From positions 35,779,540-35,843,539 of the forward strand of contig NC_091134.1 of assembly GCF_041381155.1 (NCBI RefSeq): a stretch of 64,000 nt of DNA, in the 5' to 3' direction. Below the pieces are notes generated by a model. That model ran no database searches. It saw nothing but the letters and a program-made list of their open reading frames with translations, and was not told the DNA's origin. The position numbers and the translations under genes were made by a program. Shown here in pieces: positions 8,287 to 39,417 of the stretch (position 1 is its first letter; every line of letters starts with the position of its first letter). Source of the stretch: Argopecten irradians. Its lineage: Eukaryota; Mollusca; Bivalvia; Pectinida; Pectinidae.

Positions 8287-11200
8287 ATGGAGGATACAAT
8301 GGCTGGAGGATTAAAAGAGGAGTTGTCCTGTCCTATCTGTTTGGAGGTGTACCAGGACCCAGTCATGTTACCATGCCAACACAACTTTTGTAGAGAATGC
8401 CTGAGTATCATCGTACAGCAACACCACACAGAAATATTTCTCTGTCCATCTTGTAGATGCAAAACCCCCTTAACTGAGAAACAGGTTACAAATCTACCTA
8501 AGAATTTTGCTTTAGCAAATATTATAAGCAAGCTTCAAGTTCTTGAAGATGAAGGGTCAGAGTCAAGAACTGGACATCAGCCTGAAAAGAAGACAGAAAT
8601 TTGTCTGACACATAAGCGAAATCTGTCTGTGTATTGCAATGCTTGTGATGCGGTGCTATGTACAAAATGTCTCTCAAATCATTCCGGACATGACACTATG
8701 GATTTGGAGGATAAAGTCAGTTTATGTAAGGTAAGTTATTATTTACATATAAAAAAATGCATCTTATACAGGCATATGGATGAATTCTTAGAACAAGGAA
8801 TTTTATGATATTATTTGAAAGGGCCATGAGCCTAAATATAAACCTTGAAAGTTTGGGTAAAATTTATGATGTGCCATGCAGATACCTAACTAAATAATAT
8901 ATTTCAATTATTCATAACAATATCCAATCATATTCCATTTAGTAAAAACAATTAATTCAATATTTTTGTATATCTGTACTCTATACCACATTTCAAATAA
9001 AATGATATCTATTGCCTCAGCCTGTATCCTTACAATCATTGTTAACACTAAACAGTGGAATTAATTTTGATATTTTATAAAATAGATAATTTTATATTTT
9101 CCAGAGTAAAGTGAGGCAGTCGGTCCTTCCACAGATTTCATCACTTATTGATTATATGAACAAGTTCCATAGAAATCAGACTGCCTGTCAGAAGGATTTT
9201 GAGGTAAAGAATCATAGAATATATCTCACCCACTATAGGTGGAAACAGAGAATCTCAACCTGAGGTGAAAGATACTAATCACTACTTAAGTTATTAACAT
9301 TAGGTTAAATCTCAAACAGGGTGTTAAACTTGTAGACATCCCTGTCGAGGATAAGAGAATATATAACGTTAGTGACTATCTATTGCTTCAGATGTTAGGT
9401 TTTCACACAATAATTAACTTGATAAAGAATTCATGAATTTAATTGAAACTTGCAATTTTATATCACTTATGAAGTACTAGCACAGACTGGGATTGAATGT
9501 GATAAAAAAGTCAATCAAGCTATAATATATATTTTTGGGGGCAACATTTTGGTTTCATGATGATAACTAGAAAAAGGGCTGATGAATTTAATGGAAACTT
9601 TATAATTATAAAATGACAATGTATGTTGTATTGTAAGATTGAAGGGTCGGGTATAAAGTTCACTTTGCTGAAAATAGATATATTGCACACGCGATTAATA
9701 CAACGCGTAGTGCTTGTATTATAGCTCTCTGGAATACTGTATGTGTAGGACTTGCCCTACAATGACATCTAGTGGTGATAATTTCATTCATAAACTTCCA
9801 TTCATAAATTCCCTAATCATTGAATAATATTCCTTTCGACCAATCAGAAGGTGGCCTTTCAATTACTGCATTACCAGTAAAGCAGCCGTAGGAAGACTGC
9901 CTTTTGATTGGTAGAATACACAGAGTGTGTATAGTTCTAGAATACACAGCTCCATCTAGGTCAACTGTACCCACTGCACACTGGCGACTCCTCTATTTAA
10001 CTTTCATAATCTCTATCAATGATAATTCAAATAAGACTTAATATCAAAGGCTTATAGACCTGAGAGTTATAAAGTAAACTAATCAGAGGTTCTTTCTGCG
10101 TACATTAAAATAATTATAATGTTCTTATAATGAATAGATCTGAGGTAAAGGCAATATTACTTACCGATATAAGGCTGCCCTCATGTGTGCTTGGTTTTAC
10201 CTAAATAAGTGTATGTGCACCATAAGAGTCAAGACTGTAGGATAAACACTCATTTTTAATGAATATAAGACTTTTTATTTCTTTATAATTTTAAAATCTT
10301 TTATTTCATGTGGGAATTTTAATTAAGAAGAATGTCAAACAAAACATATATGTAATTTCTGTGATTAATTGAATATTCTCGAAATTTTTTATATCAAAGT
10401 CTTTATAATGGTTTATATATTTTGATTTTGGAAATTCATTCAGTCCCACTATGTAAACTTTCCAAGCGCATTTGGCAGTCACATAGACTATGATCTTAAA
10501 TCGCTTATCATGACATCATAATCAGTGTGATGTTACAATTGTCGTACCAGCGATCACGGAAAATGGCTGTTCAAATGGCTGCATGTTCCATCTTTGACTA
10601 GATCAAATGATTAATTAATTATAGATGCAAAATCCCATGGTATTTCAACAATTGTTCCATGCTAGCGCACTTCATGGACTTTGCCTCTGTCCAGTTGGCA
10701 TTCATATTTGTGTTTGTTTGATGTCTTATTAAGAATTAGGGCCATTTAAGACTATCCGGATTTGGTTTCCAAATGAGCTATATAACATGAGAACAAATTG
10801 ATGGATTTTGATCAAACCTCTTACTATAATATGATAGCATACCTAAGCAATAACAATAAATTTGCCATAGATTAGAAAATATAATTGACAACAGGGGATA
10901 CATGTTACTTGCAACACTTACTGTAAGCTTGTTAGTGGGGGAAGATGAAATAGGTTCCCATGTACCCATCTGGCAGCTTTTCGAAACATGGTATTTTAGG
11001 ACCGGTATGATGTCTAGTTTCATTTCATGCTTGTTGCCATTGACTACTAATGTCCAATGTGGGGTCATATGGCAGCCATCTTGGATTTCAGTAATCGAAA
11101 ATGGCTAAAATCACACATTCGCAAATATGCGCATAGATAGAGAACCAGACAACACACGGAGGCAAATAAGCACATTTTGTGACATGATTGAAACATGCTG

Positions 11201-14200
11201 AATACGATAAAATCATAATAATGACGTTACATCTTCTCAGTTTTGTGAAATGGAGTGAAAATAAGGAAATTTTCAGCTTTTTCTCTAAAAAAATTAATAA
11301 ATGACATAATTTTCATCACAAGAAAAAACACTTTGGACTAAACACTTTGTAACAGTCATTTCGAATTGATCTAACCCTTGTGTAAACAAATGTGTACTAT
11401 AAAAAGTTAGATCACATGCGTAAGGATGAATAAATCAAATATTCTGGCACATTGTAACAGTTATTCTGAATTGAATTGACTCTTGTCTAAACATATGTGC
11501 ATTAGAAAAGGACAAATTTATGTTTTTTAGAAGAAGAAGCGAGATGGATCCGCCAACACCACCATTTATAGAGAAAAATAACATAATTACAAAAAATACA
11601 TATTCCAAGAGCAAGTAAACATCCAAAGGCTAGTTCACATGTTTTATCTATAATTCACACAGTTCCCAATTTCAACTATAACGTGGTTAGCACCGTAATA
11701 ATTTCTATTTAGTGAAAATAACTGGAAAACAAAGAATTTTTCATAAACTTTCGGCTCGAGGCAGAACGAAAAGTACCAATGAGTTCGAATTATTCTCCTT
11801 GAATTTTTTTTTACCTGAAGACACGATAGCACAGCTCGATCATTACCACAAAATTAAATCCTTTCAGTCTCACGACTGCTCCTTTGGTTTTCACCAAGCT
11901 GCTGCAGGTTGGCGAAGGGTTTCTGCACTCCAGAGGAATTAATATCCACATCTATTTCGGCAATTCCGTCATGCTCCACCTAGTGCGGGAATCTTTGGAG
12001 TTGAACACCCGTCTGGTCCTAAAACTTTTGCTCAAAGTCGACTTCATTCCTTCCAGAGAGAAGTCCGAGGTTCCCAGATATCTGACCTTCATCAGCTGGT
12101 CACACCTCCATTTGCGTTGGTTTGTCAGTTTTCTGGGTTATTTCAACTCCCTGGCAGATGTGGTAACACTAGGGAGACTTCACATCAGACCTCTCCAGAT
12201 GTTCCTTCTCGCAAACTGGGTCCCTCCCAGCAGGGAATGGGAGGCGTGGCTTCCTGTCAACCAGTCCGTCAAGAGGTTTTCGTGGTGTTCGGTTCTGAAA
12301 GACTATGTTCTCCAGAGATTTCCGTTGTCCAAGCCAGTTCCCTCCAACCATGACCTTGTTCACGGATGAAAGGTTTAGGGGCTTACCTCGACGGCAATTA
12401 CCAGTCGGGGGAGTGGTCTAGGGATCAGCTCTCCGAGGACATCAACGTGCTGGAGATGAGGGCTGTTTTGTTGGCTCTGGAGGCTTTTCAGAATATTCTG
12501 CATTTTAAGGTGGGTTGTGTGGCTATGGATAACTCTACAGTTGTCGCGTATCTGGAGAGACAAGGGGAAGGTCTCACGTCATTTATGCCCTCACCATCCA
12601 TATTATTCTTCTCTGTCAGGAAATGCAGATGACTCTCTTAGTCAAGCATCTCTCAGGTAGATTGAATGTCCTGAGCGCTAGCTGGTTCTGACAGAATGAC
12701 ATCTTCAAATGGCTTGGGCTGTGGACATTCTATCTCTAGATTGGGAGGGGATGCATGCTTATGCATTTCCTCCATTCAACCTGGTGGGCAGGGTTCTAAT
12801 AGATAGTTATGGGAGTATCACTCATCTCTCCTTTTGATAGTGGCCCTGTGGCCGAGACAACCCTGGTTTCCGGAGCTCTTGTCATTTCTGGTGGATGTTC
12901 CTCTGCTTCTCCCACTCAGAATCAATCTCCTGCGCCAGCTTTGGTCCCGAGATCCTCCACCTTCACGCGTGGAAGCTATCTCAGGAGGCCTCGTTCAGAC
13001 AGGCTTTTCTTCAGACGTGTCAGCTAGCAGTGCCCGATCAATTAGGTCTTCATCACCTGCTGTTTACCAGTCATGGAAGATCTTCTGTGATTGGTGTATC
13101 GATAGGAAGATTGATCCGGTCAAGGCGTCTGTCCAGCAGATTGTGGATTTCCACCTCTGTCTTGATTAGGGTGTTCAGTCTGGACAGGCCTAGGGTATGG
13201 CAGTTAGCTCCACAGTGGAATCTAGCACTTGTGTAAAATCACTGAAGGAGACTCCTTATGGGCCTATGGGCCTTTGGTGTCGGTCTCCATTAAATTTTAT
13301 TTTTTTACTTTTAAGACTGTCTTCCTTCTTGCTCTTGCCTAAGGCAAGGAGGAATGATATCCATCTGTTCACTCTTCGTTCCTTCCTAGGGCTAAATATA
13401 GCTCTGTCTTTACCCTAATCACTGATCCTGCCTTTTTGTCAAAGATTCCTTCCTTGACAGTTTTTATTGAGTTTAAGGAGAATGATCGCTTGTTTTGTCC
13501 CTGTCGGGCGCTTAGGGTTTATCTTGATAAAACTAGGGGCGAGGTAGTATTCTTCTTGGGTCAGGAGAATTTCTCCTCCCAGTCCATATCTGGCATCATG
13601 TATGCTGCTTTTTGGCGTGGTCAGTCTACTTTCAGTGACTTTTACCCCCGGTCCCTGTCCTTTCATTCTGATGGACTGGAGGGTGGGGGTGGGGGTTGGG
13701 GGGGATCCATCTTTTAATAATACATGTATCAACAAGGTGTGTTGTCCATCAATTTTTTTCTTGTGATGAAAATTATGTCATTTATCAAATTTTTTAGTGA
13801 AGAAAAGCTGAAAATTTCCTTATTTTCCCTCTATTTCACAAAATTGGGAAGACGTAACGTCATTATTAAGATTTTATCGTATTCAACATGTTTTAATCAT
13901 ATCGAAAAATGTGATTATTTGCCACTGTGTGTTTTCTGGTTCTCTATCTATGCGTGTATATGCTAATGTGTGATTTTGGCCATTTTTGATAACTGAATTC
14001 CAAGATGGCCGCCATATGACCCTCATGGGACATTAGTTGTCAATGGCAACAAGCATAAAATGAAACTAGACATCATACCGGTCCTAAAAAACCATGTTTC
14101 CAAAAACTATCAGAGGGGTACATGGGAATCTATTTGTCCTCCCCCACTATATCTTAGCCACTGTAGTCCCAACATTTTTATAACTGCATAATATATATTA

Positions 14201-17200
14201 TCATGATAATAGAAATAGTTGGTTAGCAAGGCGATGCTGTAAAATATTTGAGTGCATAATTGATTTGGTTAGGACTGCTAAACATAGGTTTCTGCAATTA
14301 CATGACTTAAAAAAATCCTTTTTGTTATCCCCCGCCCAACGAAGTTGGCGGGGGATATACAAATGGGTTCCGTCCGTCCGTCCTTCCGTCCGTACGAATG
14401 GTTTCCGGAGCATAACTCTAAAACCAGTAGAGATATTTCCACGAAACTTCATACACACATTGGTCTTATGGTCTAGTAGTGCCTTTTGCTATTTTTAGGT
14501 TTTCATTTTTTGCATTTCTTCCGTAACCATGGAAAAATTGCTGAAAATATCATATTTTTGTACCAGGTTCGTTTCCGGAGCATAACTCTAAAACCAGAAG
14601 AGATATTTCCACGAAACTTCATAGACACATTGGTCTTTTGGTCTAGTAGTCTTTTTTGTTTAGTTTTCTTTTGCTTTTTCTGTAACCATGGAACATTGCT
14701 GAAAATCAATTTGTAGTGTTCGACTAAACATAAAAAGATGTCTGCGTTTTTTCTCTGACATGCTGAAATCAATTTTGTGCAGTTCGTTTCCGCAGCATAA
14801 CTGGAAAACCAGTTGAGATATATGCACGGAACTCCATAGGCACATTAGTCTTATGATCTAGTAGTGCCTTTTGCTATTTTAAGGTTTTCACTTTTTGTAC
14901 TTTTTTCTGTAACCATGGAAACATTGCTGAAAATGGCAGATTTTTGTGTAAGAATCGTTTCCGGAGCACAACTCTAAAACCAGCAGAGATATTTCCATGA
15001 AACTTCATAGACACATTGTTCTTATGGTCTAGTAGTGCCTTTTGCTATTTTTAGGTTTTCATTTTTTGCACTTTTTCTGTAACCATGGAAACATTGCTGA
15101 AAATATCATATTTTTGTGCCAGGTTCGTTTCCGCAGCATAACTGGAAAACCAGTTGAGATATATGCACGGAACTCCATAGGCACATTAGTCTTATGATCT
15201 AGTAGTGCCTTTTGCTATTTTAAGGTTTTCACTTTTTGTACTTTTTTCTGTAACCATGGAAACATTGCTGAAAATGGCAGATTTTTGTGTAAGAATCGTT
15301 TCCGGAGCACAACTCTAAAACCAGCAGAGATATTTCCATGAAACTTCATAGACACATTGTTCTTATAGTCTAGTAGTGCCTTTTGCTATTTTTAGGTTTT
15401 CATTTTTTGCACTTTTTCCGTTACCATGGAAACATTGCTGAAAATATCATGGTAAATGTTACTTTGCAAAACTCCACCCATCTTTGTGTATATAGTCTGA
15501 TATAAATGTCAAGGCTGTATACCTGATTCAACAATTGCAGCCCCGCTCTACTTGAATTATACTCCATCTTTCTTTAGCTCAACTTCCTTTTTCCTGGTTT
15601 TTTTCCCATACACATAAGTCTCCACAATCAAACTTACTTCAGCTTTGATATCTCCATTGGCGGGGGATCTGAATGACTATGTCCTTGTTTCCATTTGAGA
15701 ATTTATAAAAGGAAATTATATTGAAGTTTCAATTTTTGCTTGCAAAAGCTTAAAATTATCTGGAAAAATCTATGATTATAGCTTCAAAAGATATCAGATA
15801 TGTGATATGTTTAATACCCTATATGGAGGAGACAAACAGTATTTATAGTTTTTGATAAAAACTGTTCATAAGAACAGAAATTAAATTTAGAGTGAGGCTC
15901 AAAGAACACTAACAGGCTTCATTGATGGGTACAAAGGTGTCCATGCTTTGTCTCTAAAACCTTTTGTTAATATTAAGTAATAGGAAACTTTATTCTCCAT
16001 TTTTTCACAGAAAGACATAGATCAGGAATTGAAGAATGTAACAAAAACTTTCAGTCAGGTGAGGTCAGTATTGGACCATCATGAATCCAAACTGGTTTCT
16101 ATCCTGCAAAGCAGAAAAGAAGAATGGTGCATGTATTCCGACGAGGCACTTCAAAAAGGAAAAAGATGGCAAAGAATTGCAGAACAGTTGGAAAAACGAG
16201 TGTTTGCTTTTCTCAACTTAGAGCCTGGCTTAGAAACTTCCCAGGTAAGCTGTTTAATGATATATATGTACATTTGTATACTTCCACTTTTACCAGCTTT
16301 CAGAAATTTAAAACAATCTTAACTCACTCTCTGTATAAAGCTTAGTATATGGGTGACATTCAATATGAATAACATATTTTTTTAAATCTGAAGAACAGTG
16401 CTTTTGATTGCATTTTGAATGAATTTATCACTATGGTTGACTGTGGATTTTGGTGTCACTTTCTCTGTAGGCTTCAAAGGAAATCTTTGTAGGCCTGTGA
16501 TTGGTTAAGACTTTTTTTCCTGAGCTGCCTTGTGATCGGTTCAGACTCTTTTTCCTGAGCTGCAGTCAGTTTAAATATGAGATTAGTCCAGGGGTGGATA
16601 TAACGTCAGTTGTAGTAACCCCTGGAGTACCACTCTCCACCCACCTCGGATCCCCCTACTAATATAAAATCATGAATTGCCTGTCCACTTATCGGCCTAA
16701 CCACTCATCAATGTCAAATCATATTTCATTCAACATGCAAACTTGAGGATTTACAGTAATACACCCAATAAATCGTTTACAATATATTCTCTCATTCAGT
16801 AGAAGGTTAATAATAACATTTTTTTTTAGATTTCCGAACAGTGCAAACAATTGTAAGTATCATCTTTGTTTTTTCCCTGCATTGCTGAAATCACTGATTA
16901 TTTATGATAGTTGAAGTTGTCTACTGTTTTTTCCTACATAGAAGAAATATTGATGAAATTACTGATTATTTAGCATGAACGTTGGAGTTGTCTACATATA
17001 TATGCATCTTTGCTATTTACATGTACTCACAGGTTTCAATATCAGCATGTGATTTGGGCTGAATTACATTAGATAGCATATACAGATAAGTAAAGTATCC
17101 CCTGAAATTGCAATGGTACTGTCTCTCCTGAAAGATAATGAAACCCCTGTATACTGAGCAGCAGTGTCGTAAATTGTGAATACCTGGTGACAGCTATGTT

Positions 17201-20200
17201 TATTACTGTAAAGGGACAACTCAGTCTAAGAGTACATTAAAATTTGCACATATATCAGAAACAAACCAGTTGTAATGAAAATGAGATTAGTTGGTTTCAC
17301 TGTGATATGCCAGAAAAATTCAGTAATGAATATGTTCAGTCTCGCTTACTGTCCACCTTGCACATTGTAGTAGGACATCTTGTATGCAGAACTCTGACCC
17401 TTGCTAGTGGACCAGAGCAACTTTTGTCTAGAACTACTCATACCTCTCTTTCAGTTTTGTGTTTACCTCATTAGGTGCATGCCCTTATCTTAAAAACAAT
17501 TTCATCTACTCTCTTGTGGTTATGTACTGCATTATGCGATAGTGTTGCGTCTGGCGTCCGGCCGTCAACAATCGACTTCATCTCCATAACCGCTGGTTGG
17601 AATTTACCAAAATTTGACTGGTAGCATCCTTATGCGGTACTGACTGAAATTTGTACAAATGGTCGGGCTGCAACCGCCTTTGCTGGTCTTATATGATGAT
17701 CAGTGATTCGTGGGAGGGGGGAGATCTAAATCTCATTGAAAAGATGCCTGTATCTCAGTAACCTTATTTTTTTAATATATCTGTTATTGGAAAAATTTAA
17801 AAAAAATACTATACTAGGCTTTACCTATTACAATTACCGGTAGTTTAAAGATGATCCACCGCTGACAAATGGTATTTATTCTCTATCAAAAACTGGTACA
17901 GACGATGAACTATATTTCTTCAGTTACAAAAGTTACTTACTTTATAACATTACCACAATTGATATGTTTGAGCTTCATATTTTAATTCAAGATAAAAATA
18001 TTGAAAATAATTAATTGCATTCTGATAAAATTCTGTGGCAATATGTGTTATTTAGACATATATATACACGATTAAACATCAGTTATTGTTCAAATGATGG
18101 TATCAATTTTGCTGTGTCGGAAGTGGAGCATCTTTAATTTAATTCCATTTTATATAAATTATGAAATAATGTGTTACAGACAAGAAGATTCTGAAGCAGC
18201 AGAACAGGACTTTGGTGAATATGAATCGTTTTCATGTAACCCTGAATTCATGTGCAAATGGAAGATCTTACTTGTAAAACACATGGATAATCTATTAGAA
18301 GTGTCTAACAGCTTGGAGATGATGTCAAATAGCCTAGATAAACTTAAAATCACAAGTGTACTAGATGGTAAGTTAATTTTTATTAACCCAACATCAGATG
18401 ATTTATCAATATTCTTTCCATCCCCAAATAATTCTTGATACCTTTTCCTATAGAAAAATAAACGATCCCTTCTCAATTTTACATGGATGTTCCGCTTCCT
18501 CCCTAATTGTGTATATTTGTGTCAGATGGTCATCTTAAAATTTGGTAACTGAAAATGTTTATTGCTATTTTTTAAATAGTACCTACTCCAAGGATCTTTC
18601 TTAAATGTCATTTGTAGGCGACCCTTGATGACTAGTTGTCCAAAAACCTGGTACATGTTGCATTTTGGGAGCGATCAGAAATATTCAGCATATTTGTTTA
18701 TTTTCTACACTGTTAAACATAATGATTAAAATCCATCATCAGAAAGGACGAGGGACTTATCAGAGGTAGATTTCTTTTGTTAGAAAGTGCAGGAAAAATT
18801 TCTCCATAAAAACCATAGAACCTAAACTTGCTGTCTTTCTTATTATTGGCACATTGCACTTTGGATACAGGTAATATCTGTTTATATACACTTGCAGTAA
18901 ACTATTTTCACAAGTTATTAACCTCTGTATTGGCATGTAGGGGAATTTTTGGTTTGTGAAGAAGTCTTGTTTAATGGTTTAAATGTGGCATATATCAGCA
19001 TTATTTACTTTTATGAGCATTTAGCATTTACCAGATTACAATGGAAAACCTTTGTTGATGAAAATGAAATCTTTTGTTGCAGAGAGGGAAGAAAAGGAAA
19101 AAGAGGAGATGGAGAGAAAGGAGGAAAAACGACATGCTTACGAGGTGAGACTAGCGAAACTGGATGAGAAGGAAAACAAGCGTAAAGCCAGGGAACACGA
19201 AATTGAGGAGGAGATGAAAAGACAGGAGGAGGAAAGATCTTCTCAGAGGTAAGGGGGCTGCTGTTAGGCAGTCTGATGCTATAGCCAGTCATGTAGTCGG
19301 GAATTGATGATAGAGAGGTTAAGCAACCTTACATGTACGTGTACGTGTTGACAGGGAAACCTGAATTTAGCGTGTATGACGTCATCATTTTATGTTGCCT
19401 CGTATCTACTACACATAGCCATAACTTGTAGCGCGGTGATTACACGTACATACAAACGTGTACTGTTTGAATGCCTATATATTTAAATGAATTTTATAGT
19501 CGTTTCTTTTTTGAAGGATTTATGCTGTATTACAGTGTGTAATTGCTTTTGAATGAAGGCACAAAACATTAGATTAACAGCCCTAGCTAACATAAATCCA
19601 TACAAGTACACGTCATAAAAAGTTGTTTTCCTGAGGTTAGGCGATAACGTCAACATGTACGTCTACGTGTATTCTACACGTACATGTACATATTAGGTTG
19701 CTTAAACTCTCTAATAACGTATCAGTAGGCAGTCGTCCAGTAAGAAAGTTTATGGTAAAAAAATGTTCTGTATACCAATTATTGAGTTGGGATCAGCTTT
19801 ATCATCAGGTTTTATGTTTCCTTTGATCTTATTGGTGTCTTGATGATTTTGAATCAGTCAAAAATGACATACATAGAATATATTACATGAATAATATTGG
19901 TCACTGTCTAGAAACTTTTATTGTTTTCCTGGTTGCTATGAGACTACGACTATAAAAAAATTGATTATGCCATTATCGCTCCCTCGGCTAACTTCGAATA
20001 TTTCTCTCCAAAATATGATATCTTCAAACTTCACACCATGAAAAGGTATACACACAAATATTTCATGTTATACAGTAATTGGCCAATAATCCAATATAAA
20101 TCCTATCTCAAGTTATAGAAAGTTCGGTTATCACAGAGGCAAACAGATGATGAATAGAGTCGTACAATAAGATTAGATTGTATTGTTTGTGGCAGCTTCA

Positions 20201-21509
20201 GAAAAGATGAAAGACCAGCCTGGAGACTAGGAGGATCCTGTGGAGGAGTGGGGTGGCAAGAAAGGGAGAAACAAAAGATGGAGAGCTGGGAAAAGGAATC
20301 AAGCCCTGTTAAACAGTATGTTACATAATTACCTAGTCACATTCTGGAGTAAAAAAAATAAGATAACATACATTTTGGATTACACTGAAAATGGGAAAGG
20401 CTTTAGTTAAAGTTATGTTAAGAAATGCTTATTGTATTCAATTTTTGGTGTTTTTTTATTTTGCTGTTTTGATCACTCTGGTTACCGTTTGTATACATAG
20501 TGTGTTCTAAATATTATTTCTCCTGATTTATGGCCTAAGCAATGAGGAAAATGTTATTAATGATATAGACTAAACCTCTTTCTGATTGTCTCTGCCTCAC
20601 AGAGCTGAGGATGAAACTTGGCGAGGGGAAAGGGCAGAGAGGCCTTGGAAAGGAAGTCATGGTGGTGACGTGCTTGGTGAAGGGGCCAGATCGGGTTCCA
20701 GTGGAGGGGGCTTAAAAGAAGGAGATTCTGAAGGTGGCCGATGGGGTTCTGGTGGAGGCAAGTTCGATGGTGGTTATAGCTGTTGGTCTCGAGGAGGAGA
20801 CTCTGAGGGTGGCAGAAGAGGTGCAGGTGATTCAAAGAGCAGAGGGGGCTCAAGAGGGGGAGATTCCGAATCCATACCTAAACACAAACCAGCAGTAAGC
20901 TGTCCTGACAAAAAGACACAGCAAAAAATTATCAAGAAGATGTTGCGAAAGCCACTGGAGGAAAAGTCAGAGGTCTTCATAGTTTCAAAAATCTGGATAA
21001 CAAAATGGAAGGCATTTTTAAGTCGAAAGGAAGGAGATGGAATTCACCCTGGTCCGGTGAATAATGCCTCCATTATGGGAACTGAGGATAAATTAAACGA
21101 TAACTTGTTAGAAGAAGAGGATTTTGTGTCCATTGATGAACCTTACTGGACACAGATTGTTGAGTGGTTTGGTTTGATGAACGGACAAAAGCCGATCAAG
21201 CGTAAGGTCATCTCTCAAGGACTGCTCTCAAAATCTTTAACTATCGAGATCTATCCTATGGAGGTTGTGCTGAATTGCAGAAACAGAAGAGAATCTCGGT
21301 GCTATAGTCAGTCGGAAACACTTCAATTTCTGAAGAATGAGTTCCGCAAAATTTTCAAGATTCCAGTCAGGAAAGATTTGCAGTTGAAAATCAATGTAGG
21401 AAGTTCCAGTAAATGTTCATGGATGGATATCTCAAACCAGGCAGACGACACCTGCCTAAAGGATGCTGGGATATCACAAGGCACCGAAATCCTCTGTCCA
21501 TGCTGGTGA
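8287..21509 (+). CDS. TRIM-like RING/B-box protein with C-terminal DUSP and ubiquitin-like domains
   Basis: Predicted E3 ubiquitin ligase fused to a deubiquitinase adaptor module. Eight coding exons: 8287-8730, 9105-9203, 16011-16244, 16830-16852 (23-nt microexon), 18180-18367, 19083-19248, 20202-20315, 20603-21509; 2175 nt, 724 residues, every junction in phase. RING at residues 15-56 (C15, C18, C30, H32, C35, C38, C53, C56); B-box 2 near 103-135; coiled coil near 150-330; a very charged Glu/Lys/Arg helix from exon 6; a Gly-Asp-Ser-Glu-Gly/Arg-rich stretch near 430-515; a DUSP domain near 545-632 (FIVSKIWITKWKAFL, HPGP, WFGL, PIKRKVI); and a ubiquitin-like domain near 633-724 (TLQFLKNEFRKIFKIP, CLKDAGISQGTEIL) as in USP4/USP15. 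No Cys/His protease domain follows; TGA closes the frame at 21507. No SPRY or NHL domain. ATG at 8287 was chosen because it precedes the RING and a good acceptor lies at 8271, suggesting a 5' UTR intron; a later in-frame ATG is at 8299. A possible poly(A) signal is AATAAA at 22050. Single-gene status is inferred from phase and from the paralogue at 33.6-39.4 kb. Confidence 0.82.
9640..10010. repeat. Unclassified interspersed-like sequence in the first long intron
   Basis: Less AT-rich than its surroundings and without an open frame; it contains two similar stretches, AGAATACACAGAGTG.. and AGAATACACAGCTCC.., near 9910 and 9950. No coding exon is seen between 9204 and 10435. I infer an old repeat; no second copy was found in the window. 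Confidence 0.25.
10438..10725. repeat. Dispersed repeat, copy A (second copy near 36.1 kb)
   Basis: Shares ordered blocks with 36084-36280: CAGTCCCACTATGTAA, ATGGCTGTTCAAATG, GATTAATT, ATGCAAAATCCC and TTGTCCAGTTGGCATTCAT. The blocks are collinear but the copies are diverged and differ in spacing. No coding potential. Confidence 0.6.
10930..11330. repeat. Left arm of a 400-bp inverted repeat flanking a DIRS-like element
   Basis: The reverse complement of this arm matches 13750-14155 almost throughout, for example GGACCGGTATGATGTCTAG, GATAGAGAACCAGA, GGAAATTTTCAGCTTTT and ATGACATAATTTTCATCAC. By eye the arms are roughly 85 percent identical. Long inverted terminal repeats around a reverse-transcriptase/tyrosine-recombinase core are what DIRS1-type elements carry. 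Confidence 0.75.
11866..13705 (+). pseudogene. Decayed DIRS-type retrotransposon: RT end, RNase H and tyrosine recombinase
   Basis: Broken frames on the plus strand spell, in order, the end of a DIRS-type reverse transcriptase (VFTKLLQVG.., SRGINIHIYF, REKSEVPRYLTFI, GRLHIRPLQMFL), an RNase H segment (WGAYLDGNYQSGEWS-like, INVLEMRAVLLALEAFQ, AMDNSTVVAYLERQG) and a tyrosine recombinase with SAM-like N-terminus (SSPAVYQSWKIFCDWCIDRK) and catalytic part (FLLALAKARRNDIHLFTLR, DRLFCPCRALRVYLDKT). Many stops and frame changes separate the parts, and the gag-like and upstream RT regions are missing. The element sits in intron 2 of the TRIM-DUSP gene in the same orientation and is bounded by long inverted arms. 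It is a relic with no working protein. Confidence 0.82.
13750..14155. repeat. Right arm of the 400-bp inverted repeat flanking the DIRS-like element
   Basis: Inverted partner of 10930-11330, beginning at TTGTGATGAAAATTATGTCA and ending near CCTCCCCCACTATATC. The retrotransposon core lies between the arms with only short unmatched stretches (about 540 bases on the left and 45 on the right). Confidence 0.75.
14328..15672. repeat. Alternating tandem array (six units of about 170-215 bp) inside a GGCGGGGGAT-bounded element
   Basis: Six related units begin with GTTTCCG(G/C)AGCA at 14401, 14571, 14786, 14957, 15127 and 15298. Units alternate between two types, GGAGCATAACTCTAAAACC and GCAGCATAACTGGAAAACC, and 14786-15126 with 15127-15466 form a nearly identical dimer repeat of 341 bases. 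The left end carries a GC-rich palindrome (CCGCCCAACGAAGTTGGCGG) with GGCGGGGGATATAC and a TCCGTCCG run; the right end repeats GGCGGGGGAT at 15659. Several in-unit frames look open only because the units are copies. No protein is supported. Confidence 0.8.
16440..16660. repeat. Partial copy of the CCAGGGGTTACT foldback family
   Basis: Contains TCCAGGGGTGGATATAACGTCAGT and TAACCCCTGGAGTA, the same blocks that end the foldback copies near 56.6 and 60.2 kb, preceded by two imperfect copies of GATTGGTT..TTTTCCTGAGCTGC. Only the arm belonging to one end is present. Confidence 0.6.
17530..17720. repeat. Interspersed repeat fragment
   Basis: A local rise in GC content with GTCTGGCGTCCGGCCGTCAA, CGACTTCATCTCC and TTTGACTGGTAGCATCC, a style of text I associate with bivalve interspersed repeats. 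It lies in the 16852-18180 intron. No second copy was seen in this window, so assignment is tentative. Confidence 0.3.
17830..18130. repeat. Dispersed repeat D, copy 1
   Basis: Shares collinear blocks with 22140-22785: CGCTGACA.ATGGTATT, CTCTATCAAAAAC, AGTTACTT, AAGATAAAAATATT, AAAATAATTAATTGC, CTGTGGCAATAT, ATTATTGTTCAAATGATG and GTGGAGCATCTTTAA. Copy 2 contains an insertion of another element between these blocks; this copy does not. Confidence 0.65.
19313..19711. mobile_element. MITE with TA target duplication in a TRIM-DUSP intron
   Basis: Ends GAGAGGTTAAGCAACCT and AGGTTGCTTAAACTCTC are inverted copies with one mismatch; TA flanks both ends (19311-19312 and 19712-19713). The subterminal parts are rich in ACGTGTACGTG / CACGTACATGTACA on both sides. 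About 399 bases, non-coding. TA duplication fits Tc1/mariner-type mobilisation. Confidence 0.65.
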
Positions 21510-22130
21510 TTTTGTATGAATGAAAAATGAAATTCTTTTACTGTGTTGAAAAAGATGGTGTGACATTGAAATTACAACCCTCAGGTAAATTCACCGACGT
21601 CCAAACCTTTTTCAAGCCCCGGGTTGGACGTTCATGAATTACCCCTCGGGTTTTGAGTTTACTGTCTAGGTAGAGAGTGTCTATGTACATGTATAGTTTA
21701 CCATTGATGCGAGTATAATGTATGCATGTTGCAATTGATTACAGTATCTGTAACATAATTGTAACAAAGGGGCTCCTATTGATACACCTAAATATATAAA
21801 AAGCTATATGAATATATTAAAATTATGTAAAAACCTCTACAATCAAATGCAAATATACAGAACTGTTAGTGAATTATCTTCAAAATTAGTATGATTTTGA
21901 AATTTCTCAAGATGGGCATTATGAGAGTGTTCAAGTGTAAAATAATTTTATTTTGAAACGACTGTAAGATAATGATACCAAATCAGCATCAGCATATTTG
22001 TTGTTTTTTGGGGTTTTTTTTCGTTAAAATTGATTTGTTTTTGTTTCACAATAAATGTTAATCCATTTACAGTTTTTTCATTGATTATTCCAAATGTTTT
22101 AGATATACCTGGTAGATACACCCAGATAGT
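21510..22130. other. 3' flank of the TRIM-DUSP gene
   Basis: Downstream of the TGA at 21507 the text is AT-rich and non-coding, with a hairpin-prone GAATTACCCCTCGGG stretch and a possible poly(A) signal AATAAA at 22050-22055. I see no further gene here. Confidence 0.4.
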
Positions 22131-22134
22131 TCAA

Positions 22135-22785
22135 TTGCTATTGAGACATAGACTGCTCCATGATGCTCCATCGCTGACATATGGTATTTTTTCTCTATCA
22201 AAAACAGGAACAGACAGTAATTTTCTTCAGTTATAAAAGTTACTTTACACCATTTCCACCATTGAGAAGTTCATCTTCTCATTGTACTTCAAGATAAAAA
22301 TATTAAAAATAATTAATTGCGTCCCGAAAAAAACCTGTGGCAATATTTCCTACCGTATGAGGTTCTGATTGTGCATGCACCAAAAGCAAAGTAAATGATC
22401 TAATTAGTTTTTTGTGTCAAAATACATACAGGGTGTTTCAGAAAACATGTCTCGACTTTAAACTGTTATAACTTCTTCATGAAACATCATAATTGCAAGA
22501 ATTTAGACATTGGGGAAAATAAGCCATTTGTTGGAATGCAATATAAACATGGAATGCAATATAAACATCATGTGATAAAATACACCTTTAGATACACAAC
22601 AATCAAACTCTATAGATCTCCATGTTTAAATTGTGTAAAATTTATATCTGGACCTTTCTGTGTTTGTGCTTTATCAATCAATAAATTTGGAACATGTTTT
22701 CTGAAACACCCTATATAACACCAATTATTGTTCAAATGATGAGTATCGTTTATGCTATGTCGTGGTGGAGCATCTTTAAGTGGAC
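22135..22785. repeat. Dispersed repeat D, copy 2, interrupted by a mariner-like MITE
   Basis: Collinear with 17830-18130 but split: the left part ends around 22390 and the right part resumes at ATTATTGTTCAAATGATG near 22724, after the inserted element at 22429-22713. This gives a relative age order: repeat D first, MITE second. Confidence 0.65.
22429..22713. mobile_element. Mariner-like MITE nested in repeat D
   Basis: The terminal sequence GGGTGTTTCAGAAAACATGT is repeated exactly in inverted form at the right end, and TA lies at 22427-22428 and 22714-22715. The CAGGGTG start and TA duplication are typical of mariner/Tc1 ends. About 285 bases, no transposase frame. Confidence 0.75.
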
Positions 22786-23945: not shown

Positions 23946-24176
23946 AATTATAAAACCCGCCATTTTGAGACTGAGGTTTGAAGAAACGATAGTGGCTTGG
24001 TATGGCTTGAAGAGTAGACAAAAGCCGATCGAATGGCACTTGTCTATCTCATGGGATGTAATGTGATGAAACGTAGGAGCAGAAGGTACTATGGTAGAGC
24101 AAGATGTTAAAAGTTAACTTCAATTCTATACGGGAAGATTCCAGATGGGAAAGATCTACAATTGAAATGCAAGGTA

Positions 24177-24283: not shown

Positions 24284-24908
24284 TCAAGGTATATGCGGTT
24301 CCAGAAATACATTATTAAACCATATTATAAGTTTCTATAAACTTATTGATTTTGGCAGCAAAAAATCTTGTTATTTTCTATAGATCTAATACATGTAATA
24401 GAAATGGAAATGAAGTTAGTTTTATGGGAAAAAATATATATATTACGCATTTGCTTTTAAAATAGTTAAGTATAATTAAAACGTTTATCAAAATATCAAC
24501 AAAACCAATATAACAGTAAAACCAATATAAGAATCAATCACAGTGCTGTTGAGATTATGTATGCAATACTAATACAGATGAACTATTAATTTCCTTAATA
24601 TAGATGAAATAAGTATTTCCTTATCAATACAGATATATATTTATTTAGTATATAGAAATTCTCACAACAATATTGATTTACATTTATATACATGTAATAA
24701 AGTAAAATTTCCTTAAGGGCCCACTAAGTTTCTAAAACAATACATTAAAAGTTTTAGTTTCTTAAAAACAGTAATTTAACATCAGAACATTTATATCATG
24801 GACCAAGGTGTTATAAAAATAAACAAATACAAGCTTCCCTGTACAACAGTGGAAATTTAGTTTGCTCTTTGACATCATACCCTAACTCTCAATAAATTTA
24901 AATATATG

Positions 24909-25240
24909 AACAGTCGGGCAAGAATGGCTAAAGTCGGTAAAAATGGTGTGAATGTATCCAGTATAATTTCTTATGAAATGGAAAAATAAAATCTCTCGTC
25001 AAAATCTGTCTGCGTACGAAGAAATTAATTTAAAGTATGGATATTCTAAAACGTCCTCCCGGCTCACTATGTCCGTGGTTACATTTCCACGCAGCCTCGC
25101 TTTCAATGCTTTCAACTTTTCTTTGCTTTAATGGTCAGAACTGGGAAACTAAGCAGAACTTGACCGTCGTATTAATATGTGAGAACTTTTAGAAGGCCAA
25201 TGGACGCATTTAGACTGGTTTTCTTTGCCCGACTATTCAC
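24909..25240. mobile_element. TIR element with 12-bp flanking direct repeat
   Basis: The ends AGTCGGGCAA and TTGCCCGACT are inverted copies, with further partial matches outside them. Exact direct repeats TTTAAATATATG flank the element at 24897-24908 and 25241-25252. A duplication this long suggests a Mutator-like mechanism (9-11 bases is usual) with chance extension. About 332 bases, no transposase. Confidence 0.6.
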
Positions 25241-31419: not shown

Positions 31420-31770
31420 CCTATTTTTGAATGCCATTTTGAAATAAGCTCAAAGAAAATTGACCAATCGACACGCTTCCTGTGTCCAAACTGTTGGGAG
31501 TCTACTGAGCTCACAGAGGCACACATCGAAAACCTGCCGAAGGATTTTGTGTTACAGGGCATCATTTCGAAATTCAGTCTATGAAACTGAGAAAGGACCA
31601 GAATGATGTCGAAGTGACAACCTGTTCCATTCACAACAAAGCTAAGATGGTATACTGCTATACATGTGAAGAGGCCATGTGTATTGACTGCTTCCCAATA
31701 CGAAGCCACGAAAACCACAACATCGTCCAATTTAGGATACGATCAAGCTGTATCAGGCAGGTGTTAAAAT
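31420..31770 (+). pseudogene. Truncated TRIM relic: end of RING plus B-box
   Basis: One frame reads RFLCPNCWESTELTEAHIEN and LPKDFVLQGIISKF (the last RING Cys pair and the linker), stopping at 31581; a neighbouring frame continues with CSIHNKAKMVYCYTCEEAM and CIDCFPIRSHENHNIVQF, a complete B-box 2. The first six RING ligands are absent or unrecognisable, and the two parts are out of frame by one base. The B-box resembles the minus-strand TRIM gene at 38991-39417 (CEEAMC, R.HENH.IV), so this is probably a partial inverted duplicate. A possible exon at 31869-31957 (after TTATCAG) ends in a stop but has no clear link. Confidence 0.6.
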
Positions 31771-33622: not shown

Positions 33623-33638
33623 CCTAGAAACTGTTTAT

Positions 33639-36600
33639 TCAATTATCAAACATTTCGTAAATATCTTGTGCGTTAGACGTACTGCTATGGTCCATGTCAG
33701 ATACGACACTAATCGTTGATGTAGCACTTTGCGCTTCGTCCCTTCTCTTGTGGTCTTTCCTTGAACTCTTCTTAGATTTTGTACCAGTCTGAAAGCATTT
33801 GATGAAATCAGGTCATCAAGGGTCAACACTTTTATCATCTTAATCTGGATAAAGTAAATTTACATACACAACCTATAAGATCTATAAGAAGGCGACCAAT
33901 TAAGACAACGTCTTTGGTTATACTAGTGTCTGAAAGAACTATTAAACTTTCATTTTTTACAACAGGTTCACTTCAATGTGTTTGAGAATTATATACAATA
34001 AGAATTCAATTTTATTTGTAACATGCATTTTCATAAGCTTAAAATTTACTTTATCAGCTCTTAAAGGACAAAATGGCGTTGCCATGTATAATGTCACTTC
34101 TGATTGGTTGATATCACGTCCCAACATGAATTTTGAATATATTATCTTTAATAAATTGAATTTTAAGGATTTCTTTGAATATATAACACAAAAATCTTAA
34201 TGTACTCTCATCATAAACCACTTCACGGTTTATTTAGAACGCACTCACTTATTTAGACCTACCTGATATGATACAACCGGTGTGTCCAAATTGTAACGAT
34301 TATCCCGATTGTCGTAATATCTCAATCCATCGTGATAAGAACTTTGGCTGCTTTGCCTTCCACTGTAACTTTCTCTTGAACTCTTTCTCTCATACCCATC
34401 AACTGGGCACATTAGCCTCACTCTCTTCAGCTTCGGCTTCTTTTCTGTATACTGACATAAAGAAATGAATATCAGTATTAAAATGACTGTTATCATATTT
34501 AGTTGCCTGCATTGAAAAGCCAGTCTTGTTATTGATATATTTTGTGTGTTTTAGACCTCTACTTTACCGGTATACATAAGTACATGAGCATAAAGGCCAA
34601 TATCATCGATACCATAGGGATAACTTTCACTATCGTTATAGCCATCCCTGGACTACCTCATAATAAAGCTGAGAGCAGTTTTGAAGAAAAACCAATTACA
34701 TGCCTGCAGATTTATATTTCCTTTCAAGGCTATAGGGTAGCAACGCCCAACTATAAATCAACATAACGTACCGTCAATCGATTTTTTGATGTACATTGAA
34801 GGAAAAAACTACATGATCATTTGTTGCCAAACATAGAGCCTTCAGTTTTGCTATGAAATATCCCAGTGGTGGACATAACGACAATAACAGTAACCCATGG
34901 ACTGTCGAGGATGACAATCGAGATAAAGAGATTACAAAAGTTACTTACCACAGGATTTTGTGACATCCAGGTGCTGTTCAAATTACCGTCAGAATGCCAT
35001 TCATCAGCATGATTATCTGACGGTAAATACTTCTTTGTTGTTTCCTGACATTTAAGATTGGGTTCTGTAAACATCATATATCCAAATGACAAAAAATATA
35101 TAAAGCACCTATTTGAAGAATTGATCTTTAATTTGTTTAGCAATCGGTTGTCAATCTATACAGAATGTCGGGTGTATTAATTAAAGCTGTACATAGCGTA
35201 AATGGTAATATTAATATAGTGATGATTCAGGATAGTTTACAAAATTTAATCTTCTTTTTATGTTTTTTAATTATAAACGTTGACAGTGATACCTACCTAT
35301 CGTCATTTTGTTGATCTCAGATTTAATCTTCTTCAGTTCACCTGTTAATTCCAACATTTGTTTGAAAAGTCTTGAGTCTTTCTCCTCACAAATCAGTCGT
35401 GTATTGTCTACTTTCATTTCAAGTTCTTCTTGCGTCGCCTTCGTACATCTGTGACAGTAGAATCCATATAATTAAGAAAGTTAAATGTGCTGCCGAGAAG
35501 GGAAATATCTTGCAAAGAGCTTTATGGCATTGTTTCATATTATCTATTCCATAACTATGCATGTTTTACGATACAAAATCCATGTGATAAATTCCATTGC
35601 AGTTGGTTATCATTTATGTTTTCACACTCCAGTGTGCAAACACCTACGGCGCCTCTGATTGGTCAGTTCTAAGATCCCTTGATTCCGATTGACTCTCAAC
35701 TTCGGGCTACTTTTCATGGCGCATTTTCTTTTAGGAGTGTACTTACTGTATAACAGGTAGTTGCTTATCCAAAGTATTAAACAATAGACTATTGGCTCTC
35801 TATTTACATAATGTAGGCACTATATTTCATGGCGGAAAGATATCACTACACATTGTATGGTGGTAAGTTTCAATGAATGAATACGAGAAAATGGTCATCA
35901 CAGTATAAATATAGAGTTAAAGCTCTTTTCAAAAATTGAAAATTAACTAACTCGAGTTTGATAAACATGATAAACAACAGTCACGCGTTAGGGAACCTCT
36001 ATGTTCAAATCTATCTACTAGATATACATTTAACCCATATTGATCTTGGCTTTCATACAGTTATATTTACATTTTTACACTGCAGTCCCACTATGTAACC
36101 TTATCAAGGGCAGATGGCTGTTCAAATGTCTGTTTCATGTTTGACGATAACGAATGATTAATTCATTATGCATGCAAAATCCCTCTTGATTTCATCTTCA
36201 AATTGTAACCAAATGAGCGCGCTTTATGCAATTTGCCTTTGTCCAGTTGGCATTCATTTTGGCTATGAATGCCAACTGAAAGACGTTCAATGCTTAAATA
36301 CATTGTTAAAGTATTATAACATTTCATACTTGAAACCTTTTTTTACATTTATGTATGTTTTATTTATGATTATATTTGAAACTATATTTTAAACTTTTGG
36401 AACATTGCTAGGTACTCCATACAGATACTGAAGAGTCATTTTCAAAAGTAATGTGAGGATTTTCAACAATGTTTATTCCCCATAAGTTTTTGCTTTTTTT
36501 AAATGCAGAAACATGGATTAGCCCTGCCAAAGTTAGTTTCAATTCAATAAAAAAATATTGTATAGTGAACGAATTTAGTAATCAAATCAGTTTACTATCA

Positions 36601-39417
36601 ACGAATGTTTTCACAATATAAATATACATGTACCATTTTTTAACATTAAAAAATACTAATATTTAACTAAACACTCAATCAGTTATATTGATTTTCAGAT
36701 TTTGTTTATATCTCAAAGCATTCATACGTAAATAATAAACATATGTCTTTTAACGAGAAGGGTTATAGTGCCTTCAATGAATTGCATGTGGAGGCTGTCG
36801 AGTTTAATCCTTACATCATTTGAAACCCTGATCTATAAAACTTACCTTTCTTTATCAACTTTTATGTCCTGTAAAATAAAAACGTTGATAAGCTATGAAA
36901 CGTAATTTATCAGGTGCACACCAACTCAATAGTCAATAACTGTTTTAATAGAAAAAATTTTACACAGTAAATCATATAATGGAGTTTTTGGCTGATAAAT
37001 TTGTTATGATAAGTCTGTGACATATTCATAACCTTGTTTACGTTTTTAAGTTTTACCACTAAGAAATAAACCTTGTATTTAGTTCAATTTTAAATAGCAC
37101 TTTTCATTTCAATAAGAAAAAAATAAATGTGATTCAATTAATAATTGCCAATAACACGGAAATAATAAAACATCAATTACCGAAACGTTAAGACAAGAAA
37201 CAAAACTTTAAATAGTATTCACTCTAAACACTGACGTTAAATGAAATGATGGGAAAACAAATCAGAAAACAGTTTGTCAGTTGTTCATTATAAATAATAT
37301 CAAATGAAATATTTGGACCTTTCATTCATGTGTTAAAAGAAGGTTTCGAACTATGTCCCATTCTTTGAAACCATCGATGTCAGGATGTAAAAAATTGGCG
37401 CTGATTAGTTAAAAGGTGATTCAGTGGGATAGCACTATAAAGGAATCAATTGTTTCCACTATTTCAATGAGACAGCTCCCACTATTACGATTTAGGACGC
37501 ATACATTAGCCCATAAATGAAATTAGCTATTGATAAAACCGAATGAAATCAACCCATGCGAAAGATGCGCGTACCTTACTTCAATTTATGTATAGGTTTT
37601 TTAAGCTACAAACACAAAAATACCTGAATATTTGAATGATTTTGAAAATCTAAGATGGCGAATTTTGCGGCGAGATTTTCAAGAACGCCCAACTCTAAAT
37701 TTAGTTTGTCAGTCTGACGTTGATAACGTGATTCTAGTTCTTGTTTCTTCGACTCTACTGCAGACATTAAATCCGACTCTCTTTTATTAAGTGTTGACCG
37801 AAGTTCCCGGAAACCGACAGAGATTCCTTGGTAATTACTATGAAGCAGGCCCTGCACAGATAAAATGAACAAAGGATTACCCATACGAACTTCATGTCAT
37901 CTGAAATCGTGTAATATCAACGCGATATGATTGGATGTTTAACAACTTCCATACACTGACTTACTGTGTAGAATCTAGATATTTTGCCATATACATATAT
38001 GTGTGTTAAACAGTATTACACACACATATAAAGAACATATCTATCGAGTCAAAACCTCGTGGTACATACTTTTTTGTATCAACGCCCAGTAAAAATCCGC
38101 AAAACTTCTCTTCTAATAACTTTGAATATATTCAAAGATGTATTATTGGTTAAATTATGAATCTCATTGGAAATATAACATTTACGAAAATAAAACTACA
38201 TTTTAAGAAGAACTTCGTAAGAGCCGAAGTTATATAGTGTTCATATCCAGCGTTATATTTATTTTTAGACAAACAGACGGTTATCGACATATGTTTTATA
38301 TTTTACTTAATAATTAAGCTATATAAATCATTAAAGACACATTGTATCACACAGATGTACCATCACTCTTTTACGACTCTCGTCAAGTTCTCCCTTCATA
38401 GCAGCCAATGATTCCGTTAACTTGTTAACATTTGGCATTAGTGACTGCTTAACCTCTTCCTGTAAATATGAAAAAAATGAAATTCAAATGTTTTTTATTA
38501 TCATTTCATATCTCAAAGTGTTCGTATAAGAGTAGTTATTCATCGAAAAGTTATCAATAATTTTGCTATAAGACAAAAAGTCTAAAGACTATAAGAAAAC
38601 AGAAACAAATACAAAGCTGAAAATGGTCTACAAAAAGTTGCAATATTAATGAAAATATGGATGTTACTAATTCACTGCTATAGATAGTAAAACCTTATGC
38701 AAAAAAATCTCCAAAATGACATTAAAAGACAGAAAACATGAGCTCTGATAAGTTTAATCATGTCATAAAACTTATCTTAAACAATAACATATTGCATATA
38801 TTTTTAATGACCATTTCATTTTATGAGGAAAATATTTTGGCATTTACAATGGTAAATGTTTATCATTGTTATATCTAGTAGTCTTTAAAAATATTTATGA
38901 TTAATAAACAAATTTTTAATTTTTGAAATGGGTAGATATAATAAAGTTAACTTCAGAAACAATTAACTAAATGTTGTTAATTGATTATACCTGGTACATC
39001 TTCATTTTGTCCTTGATATCAACAATAGTGTGGTTTTCATGATTCCGTGTTGGAATACACTTAAAACACATGGCCTCTTCACATTCATTGCAGTACGCCA
39101 TCAGAGGTTTCTTGTGCTGGCAGCAGCTCATTTTCCTGTTTTACAGACTGAATTTTTGTAATGATATTCTGCAACGCAAAATTCCTTGGCAACGTTTCGA
39201 TGGCTGTCGCTGAGTGAGATTCCCGACAACTTGGACACTGGAATCGCTTTGATTGGTTCCCGATGACAGACACATTCGCCTTTAAACATCTACGACAGAA
39301 GTTGTGCTGGCACGGGAGGGAGACAGGATCATCGTACATGTCTAGGCAGATAGGACAGGACAGCTCCTCTTCTAAACCCAGCTGGGTTGTCAGTGATTGG
39401 TCTTTGGAGCATGTCAT
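33639..39417 (-). CDS. TRIM-like RING/B-box/coiled-coil protein, one frame slip in exon 1
   Basis: Predicted E3 ubiquitin ligase. Exons on the minus strand: 38991-39417, 38361-38459, 37624-37851, 36846-36868 (23-nt microexon), 35297-35448, 34949-35064, 34263-34451, 33639-33788; about 460 residues if one surplus base is discounted. RING near residues 19-65 (CPICLDMYDDPVSLPCQHNF, CRRCL, CPSC); B-box 2 (CCQHKKPLMAYCNECEEAMC, CIPTRNHENHTIV) lies one base out of frame with it. The slip maps to A-runs seen as TTTT at 39131-39134 or 39139-39142; removing one base from either restores the frame. Coiled coil from exons 2-5 (KLTESLAAMKGELDESRKRV; ELESRYQRQTDKLNLELG; ELKKIKSEINKM). The tail is Ser/Lys/Arg-rich (GYERKSSRESYSGRQSSQSS) and ends DIYEMFDN; no SPRY, NHL or DUSP domain. 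Exon sizes 99, 228 and 23 match the TRIM-DUSP gene (99, 234, 23). AATAAA overlaps the stop codon. Either a sequencing error or a young pseudogene; all later exons are clean. Confidence 0.75.
33995..34242. repeat. Half copy of the GCTTCGC-centred foldback family
   Basis: Matches the left half of the element near 41.25-41.57 kb (TTACTTTATCAGC, AAAATGGCGT, CTTCTGATTGG, ATATAACACAAAAATCT, TCTCATCATAAACC). The centre reads CCACTTCACGG where the other copy has CCGCTTCGCGG, as CpG loss would give, and the right arm is missing. It lies in an intron of the minus-strand TRIM gene. Confidence 0.6.
34585..34925. repeat. Degraded copy of the CCAGGGGTTACT foldback family
   Basis: ATACCATAGGGATAACTTTCACTATCGTTAT..CCATCCCTGGACTACCTCA on the left and CCCAGTGGTGGACATAACGACAATAACAGTAACCC on the right correspond to the two arms of the copy at 60215-60545. 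It lies in a TRIM-gene intron and abuts the exon at 34949. Confidence 0.55.
36084..36280. repeat. Dispersed repeat, copy B (partner near 10.4-10.7 kb)
   Basis: Shares CAGTCCCACTATGTAA, GGCTGTTCAAATG, GATTAATT, ATGCAAAATCCC and TTGTCCAGTTGGCATTCAT in the same order with 10438-10725. It lies in a TRIM-gene intron. Non-coding. Confidence 0.6.

Follow-up and report, generated by a model that had tools for sequence, protein, structure and literature searches.

A candidate chimeric TRIM gene of Argopecten irradians with an eIF3a-derived middle and a DUSP-UBL tail

One locus in the scallop Argopecten irradians probably forms a single protein-coding gene assembled from three sources, a TRIM protein, the tail of eIF3 subunit A (eIF3a) and a DUSP-UBL tandem, whose product would act as a TRIM ligase with a docking tail. 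It was analysed in a window of 64,000 nt, the whole stretch of DNA under study, and positions below are coordinates of this window; the species' own genome, in which searches were made, comprises 845.8 Mb in 1508 contigs. Eight exons join into 2175 nt that encode 724 aa, with continuous phases, a sole stop codon at the end and GT-AG borders at all seven introns. An earlier account drawn from the letters alone (the sequence-only reading) had proposed eight in-phase exons, and these were reproduced with every boundary that it named. The features of the gene are as follows.

8287..8730, plus strand: exon 1, with the start codon, RING (Pfam, 2.5e-10) and B-box (2.3e-7), residues 1-148
9105..9203, plus strand: exon 2, 99 nt, probable coiled coil
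16011..16244, plus strand: exon 3, 234 nt, probable coiled coil
16830..16852, plus strand: exon 4, 23 nt; the TRIM paralogue next to it on the minus strand has a candidate exon of this size too
18180..18367, plus strand: exon 5, the last TRIM-derived exon, with intron phase 1 as in exon 5 of the paralogue (phases taken from exon lengths)
19083..19248, plus strand: exon 6, charged helix from EIF3A (82.5% nucleotide identity, dN/dS 0.145)
20202..20315, plus strand: exon 7, Trp/Arg/Gly segment from EIF3A (dN/dS 0.388)
20603..20870, plus strand: 5' part of exon 8, Gly-rich tail of the last EIF3A exon (73-81% nucleotide identity)
20880..21509, plus strand: 3' part of exon 8, intronless DUSP and USP-type ubiquitin-like domain with the stop codon
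22050..22055, plus strand: candidate polyadenylation signal, the sole AATAAA within 21510-22600

The acceptor of exon 7 is a tandem site, and a start at 20196 gives a product of 726 aa that is also open. For the 5' part of exon 8, dN/dS is 0.274, a value made uncertain by repeats in the alignment.

RBCC proteins oligomerise via their coiled coil and transfer ubiquitin via their RING, and the tail contributes to the choice of target. In the scallop product, the RING near the N-terminus and the B-box that follows it (zf-B_box) are both over the Pfam cut-off, and the C3HC4 positions of the RING are visible by eye in the translation. A coiled coil probably follows the B-box. No Pfam coiled-coil match was found in the 724-aa product; a TRIM_CC match, below the cut-off, was observed in the neighbouring TRIM paralogue, and the corresponding exons of the product measure 99, 234 and 23 nt. 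Exons of 23 nt are common among TRIM genes, and catalogued TRIM C-terminal classes include SPRY, NHL, FN3 and MATH. None of the catalogued C-terminal domains was found in the tail of the product, where Pfam returned DUSP, a sub-threshold Ubiquitin_3 and a chance-level match to the helical SLM4 (E 0.28). In zebrafish, the coiled-coil exons of finTRIM genes measure 96 and 234 bp according to the available part of one report (PMC2657112).

The same window contains a relative of the TRIM part.

33639..39417, minus strand: TRIM paralogue whose eight candidate exons measure 427, 99, 228, 23, 152, 116, 189 and 150 nt

The phases of its exons 2-5 equal those of the chimeric gene, and this agreement in exon sizes and phases supports the first five exons of the latter. 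The paralogue carries no DUSP, its tail has no Pfam family match, and its exon 1 has a frame break that leaves RING and B-box in different frames. The RBCC exon has at least 136 matches in the genome (best 150 of 349 candidates scored), and its nearest relative among the matches listed is this paralogue, at 55% identity. At E <= 0.1, exon 3 matched nothing else in the genome (one candidate scored). In parallel, the RING end and B-box (6.6e-9) of a further TRIM copy were found on the plus strand at 31477-31772, with stops in the RING part, and this copy looks like a relic. The paralogue's frame break and the decayed copies nearby mark the locus as prone to pseudogenes. A tandem array was also observed at 33099-33719, just past the end of the paralogue; its translated unit measures some 26 residues, or about 78 bases.

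The middle of the protein comes from an unrelated gene. When 184 of its residues were compared with the scallop's own genome, seven matches were obtained, three of them to itself, two on contig C11 and two on contig C792. Protein identity reaches 75% and 61% for two exons at 20.94 Mb of C11, and 51% and 58% on C792. On C11, the matched gene is that of eIF3 subunit A, as other exons there match eIF3A chains in PDB (1e-22 and 1.7e-5); the C11 source exons themselves had no PDB match, so the EIF3A identity rests on those other exons of the locus. The middle region itself matched no Pfam family at E <= 0.1 and no PDB entry at E <= 1, one further search gave three chance-level matches (E 0.12-0.13) and another none at E <= 10. 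At the DNA level, the homology extends well beyond the exons.

18743..20870, plus strand: duplicated segment from the 3' end of EIF3A together with its introns (source C11 20938733-20941211; 69-81% DNA identity, colinear)

Since this colinear homology includes the introns, segmental duplication is, on the DNA alignment, the origin of exons 6 and 7 and of about 270 bases of exon 8. The captured exons are read in EIF3A's own frame. The copy starts at most 25-30 nt before the end of the preceding EIF3A exon (judged by eye, from a predicted exon end), and the captured piece has no complete upstream EIF3A exon. Of four earlier EIF3A exons, none has a separate counterpart in the window; two charged ones among them match weakly, at exon 6 or by chance. 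Relative to the last EIF3A exon, exon 8 shows gaps of 320 and 2 nt, a net in-frame loss of 318 nt near the start of the source exon; in the two best aligned blocks its gaps are otherwise of 3 or 6 nt. A part of intron 6 (about 19310-19717) does not align to C11 and is a dispersed repeat with many copies among the scored candidates. The sequence-only reading had described a charged helix and a Gly-rich segment at this place; both are present, but their EIF3A origin had been overlooked and with it the three-way nature of the chimera.

The second copy of the EIF3A 3' region, at C792:6900-9680, has frames that are broken relative to C11 and appears to be either a duplicate contig or a pseudogene. 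Of note, a repeat (17845-18135 and 22162-22777) flanks the captured piece on both sides and also occurs just upstream of the C11 source, in opposite orientation, and in the region of a USP gene on contig C12. Its position may be due to chance, or it may have helped the duplication.

The case for coding constraint on the EIF3A-derived exons, made within one genome, is good but not conclusive. By the Nei-Gojobori method, 176 aligned codons of exons 6-8 and C11 EIF3A gave a dS of 0.749, a dN of 0.181 and an omega of 0.242 (bootstrap 0.153-0.377; of 2000 replicates, 0.1% reached 0.5 or more). Synonymous changes numbered 54.5, against 37.1 expected under a neutral copy and a perfectly conserved EIF3A (P 0.018); the excess was also seen in exon 6 alone (P 0.014) and in exons 6 and 7 together (P 0.034). 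Of 20,000 runs of a neutral simulation, a single one left the 570-nt stretch with neither stops nor frame shifts, and 1.3% left it without stops if frame shifts are disregarded, figures to be read with the fact that any frame shift is treated as fatal and that the locus was chosen because its frames are open. Relative to C11, 18 of the 22 gaps in introns have lengths not divisible by three (end gaps stripped), whereas exons 6 and 7 have one 3-nt gap each, that of exon 7 at its start. The exon 8 alignment crosses repeats, and its gaps of 320 and 2 nt are singly not multiples of three. The distance in alignable introns is 0.19-0.29 (exon 8 and the repeat-bearing part of intron 6 left out); a dN of 0.18 lies little below it, which makes the rate evidence for selection moderate rather than strong.

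These figures bear on the reading that the chimera is decaying, its EIF3A and DUSP-UBL copies being open by luck without yielding a useful protein. Such a fate would suit the surroundings, with the frame break of the neighbouring TRIM gene, the RING/B-box relic at 31477-31772 and, 2.5 kb downstream, a probable relic of the DUSP-UBL module itself.

23988..24176, plus strand: probable decayed DUSP-UBL copy, one patch of 43 nt (77% identity) and, colinear with it, one of 42 nt (79%)

No EIF3A part was detectable alongside this copy. The similar size of intron and exon divergence also fits decay. Nevertheless, we consider it very unlikely, given the outcome of the neutral simulation, the omega value and the synonymous excess, the mostly frame-breaking gaps of the introns as opposed to those of exons 6-7, and a DUSP-UBL frame, 33% identical to USP15, that still runs through about 210 codons without a stop.

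The TRIM and EIF3A parts would be joined by splicing of exon 5 to exon 6 (18367/19083), a junction predicted from the genomic sequence. The exon 5 donor is strong by eye (GATG/gtaagtta), and its phase is the one required by exon 6, so that splicing would carry the EIF3A frame into DUSP-UBL. Moreover, the first Met of exon 8 falls within the N-terminal helix of the DUSP. With no earlier Met in exon 8, an upstream coding exon in phase 1 is required, and TRIM exon 5 is such an exon. The locus could instead produce two transcripts, namely a short TRIM ending after exon 5 and a separate EIF3A-tail/DUSP-UBL transcript with an unrecognised promoter and first exon. A short form is possible, as reading through the exon 5 donor adds 23 codons before a stop, and the neighbouring paralogue is likewise domain-less, with a tail outside Pfam families. 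We nonetheless regard two transcripts as quite unlikely in view of the strong, phase-matched donor, the captured piece that has no complete upstream EIF3A exon, and an exon 8 devoid of Met ahead of the DUSP helix. The single-gene reading, which the sequence-only reading had also favoured, is therefore the best one, phase match and truncated EIF3A piece both opposing two genes.

The C-terminal part, compared with profiles and structures, is a DUSP-UBL tandem of USP4/11/15 type. In Pfam, DUSP was found over the cut-off at residues 545-626 (1.5e-16) and Ubiquitin_3 below the cut-off (0.0037). A phmmer search of PDB with exon 8 returned 13 distinct sequences at E <= 1, all of them USP4, USP11 or USP15 constructs by depositor name, one being named merely 'ubiquitin carboxyl-terminal hydrolase'. 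The best match, to the USP15 DUSP-UBL (1.4e-26), spans both domains and the N-terminal helix of USP15. Identity to human USP15 is 33% over 195 aligned residues, in a frame that is open over about 210 codons. The domain identities first proposed by eye were thus borne out, for RING, B-box and DUSP by Pfam, including the proposed search for DUSP on the 724-aa product, and for UBL by phmmer to USP15.

The sequence-only reading had also seen no protease domain, and this held up: queries with the Cys-box and His-box of USPs recovered both boxes from the USP gene on C12 but nothing credible from the window (best E 2.4). A protease core hidden downstream was rejected on the same ground. Across 428 open frames of the C12 USP region, no match to the window at E <= 1e-3 came from the five DUSP-UBL exons or from the boxes found. 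The strongest match (window 24906-25232) was discarded as a dispersed repeat, the best 40 of 864 candidates all being 98-100% identical; the repeat, at 24907-25240, lies downstream of the gene and has many copies among the scored candidates.

In the whole genome, six DUSP matches were over the cut-off, two of them in one minus-strand gene on C12. This gene is of USP4/11/15 type, with Cys and His boxes and a DUSP-UBL spread across at least 5 exons, and it shares 62% of 198 aligned residues with human USP15. The tail of the chimeric gene is only 31% identical to the C12 USP over 185 aligned residues, and exon 8 matches the C12 USP exons weakly in pairwise comparison (best E 0.001); the link to USPs rests on the Pfam and phmmer/PDB results. 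The other five DUSP matches have no RBCC-exon match within 500 kb, among the matches listed, and the combination of TRIM and DUSP-UBL appears to be a single locus in this genome.

An intronless tail facing a C12 USP gene with introns fits an old retrocopy of a USP mRNA as the source of the DUSP-UBL. The EIF3A piece kept its introns and is for this reason not a retrocopy. No second DNA copy of the DUSP-UBL part of exon 8 was found in the genome (one candidate scored). Among viral contigs, 13 pattern matches to DUSP-UBL relatives were obtained and none was confirmed; in phages there were none. Elsewhere on C11 (13511785-13513880), a separate intronless frame of 465 aa holds DUSP and Ubiquitin_3, both above the Pfam cut-off, and a coiled-coil-like end, and is followed by a frame with BTB_2 (3.2e-20). 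If joined, the two frames probably form one DUSP-UBL-BTB gene of KCTD type, and DUSP-UBL may thus have been recruited into ligase machinery twice.

What the tail would bind can be approached through its relatives. From the accessible parts of the literature, the DUSP-UBL of USP4 and USP15 binds E3 ligases and SART3, a recruitment factor (PMC6333900, PMC8125482), that of USP4 promotes ubiquitin release (PMC4243247), and the USP4 linker GLFVKH is essential for SART3 binding (PMC8125482). The tail has GLLSKS as the counterpart of this linker and keeps the USP4 DUSP-UBL interface pair E134/Y136 (IEIY). By the USP4 numbering that we assume, R40 is replaced by Ile and the F51 segment is missing in the alignment. 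SART3 was rejected as a partner since the linker residues are not kept. Fold and domain packing are probably conserved and the known partner surface is not; with the interface pair kept and the linker changed, SART3 is a less likely partner than one that is new or has diverged.

A special case, compatible with the three-source ligase, is that the gene works on the USP4/USP15 pathway, its DUSP-UBL serving as a decoy that competes with USP15 for shared partners and opposes it or targets its clients. The binding of E3 ligases and SART3 by the USP4/15 module, as described in those sources, would give such a decoy its partners, and the E134/Y136 counterparts are in place. Yet the change of GLFVKH to GLLSKS, the loss of the counterparts of R40 and F51 under the assumed numbering and the low identity to the genome's own USP speak against it, and this special case is doubtful. 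USP15 is reported to deubiquitinate and stabilise TRIM25, in the part of the source available (PMC8125482). The earlier suggestion that the tail hard-wires this relation is unsupported, at 33% identity to human USP15 and with an altered linker, and nothing in the analysis supports the role in innate immunity that was also suggested.

As for the eIF3a part, we place the captured piece, by human sequence position, downstream of the segment that binds eIF3b and eIF3i. In the reports seen in part, it is a segment of the eIF3a spectrin domain that binds these two subunits (PMC4320536, PMC5737393). Docking of the eIF3a part to eIF3b/eIF3i was rejected on this positional ground, and the eIF3a part is thus regarded chiefly as a spacer, perhaps one in contact with RNA.

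For the three-source ligase, the following course can be proposed. A TRIM gene (exons 1-5) would have acquired, downstream of exon 5, the 3' end of EIF3A as a genomic duplicate, and a piece of the last EIF3A exon would have been fused, within one exon, to the intronless DUSP-UBL module. Exon 5 would then splice to exon 6, EIF3A's frame being read on into DUSP-UBL. In the protein, the coiled coil would oligomerise the product and the RING would transfer ubiquitin, while the eIF3a-derived helix and Gly-rich stretch would form a long flexible spacer, possibly facing RNA or the ribosome. With no protease attached, a docking role remains for the DUSP-UBL, which would hold a partner or substrate for ubiquitination by the ligase. 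It is rather unlikely, in our estimate, that the gene goes further and represents a selected, expressed TRIM class in which the eIF3a tail places the ligase near ribosomes or mRNA and DUSP-UBL picks the clients.

Several other features were observed in the window. Intron 2 holds an element (10938-14145) whose long inverted ends (10938-11350 and 13732-14145; 84-88%) surround several open frames; the two frames tested had no Pfam match, and a DIRS-like nature is our guess. A dispersed repeat with many copies among the scored candidates lies in the 3' untranslated region (21554-21666). At 28899-30812, two long open frames of 301 and 225 aa have no Pfam match and may, as a guess, encode a transposon-derived protein. 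Finally, near-identical open frames of 98-99 codons at 54260-54556 and 56010-56309, 1.75 kb apart, form a local direct duplication.

TRIM proteins switch targets by switching tails. A natural ligase that carries the docking module of a deubiquitinase would offer a direct test of DUSP-UBL binding in a protein devoid of protease and, if true, would be a ligase built from parts of its opposing enzyme and of the translation machinery. As the EIF3A source is traceable with its introns, one of the capture steps can be dated and placed in order, and the birth of a three-part gene followed in relatives. No TRIM-DUSP or TRIM-eIF3a protein was found among the matches listed, mostly from open literature, where 'DUSP' mostly finds dual-specificity phosphatases. 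The word 'DUSP' is absent from the main text, as far as available, of three TRIM surveys (PMC3503706, PMC3137616, PMC2533329). In line with the sequence-only reading, no described TRIM class with a DUSP-UBL tail was thus met in the literature searched.

The gene can be set against its two donors and against known TRIM chimeras. It shares with USP4, USP11 and USP15 a DUSP-UBL that is homologous over about 200 residues, N-terminal helix included, but in the scallop gene the module is C-terminal, no protease core was found and one exon stands for the 5 or more of the C12 gene. With the C-terminal tail of eIF3a it has in common exons 6, 7 and part of 8, copied from the 3' exons of EIF3A in the same frame, although the last exon has lost a net 318 nt and the earlier exons tested have no separate window copy. 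Zebrafish ftr06 (chromodomain) and ftr52 (RanBD-CypA), members of an expanding TRIM family, acquired their tails by exon insertion or shuffling, according to the part of the source available (PMC3137616). They resemble the scallop gene in the gain of a C-terminal domain and in finTRIM coiled-coil exons of 96/234 bp, against 99/234 here (PMC2657112, in part). The captured domains differ, and the fused ftr52 transcript is described, in the same limited text, as having a premature stop in fish, whereas the scallop gene has none. In TRIM5-CypA of owl monkeys and macaques, the RBCC gained a retrotransposed cyclophilin A as a new last exon, as the accessible text reports (PMC2279257). There as here an RBCC is combined with a domain captured from an unrelated gene, in the scallop by a predicted splice of exon 5 to exon 6. 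TRIM tail capture itself is thus known, and what appears to be new is a chimera with two captured parts: unlike TRIM5-CypA, the scallop gene has a DUSP-UBL as its tail and, in between, a second captured piece, from EIF3A, that has kept its introns.
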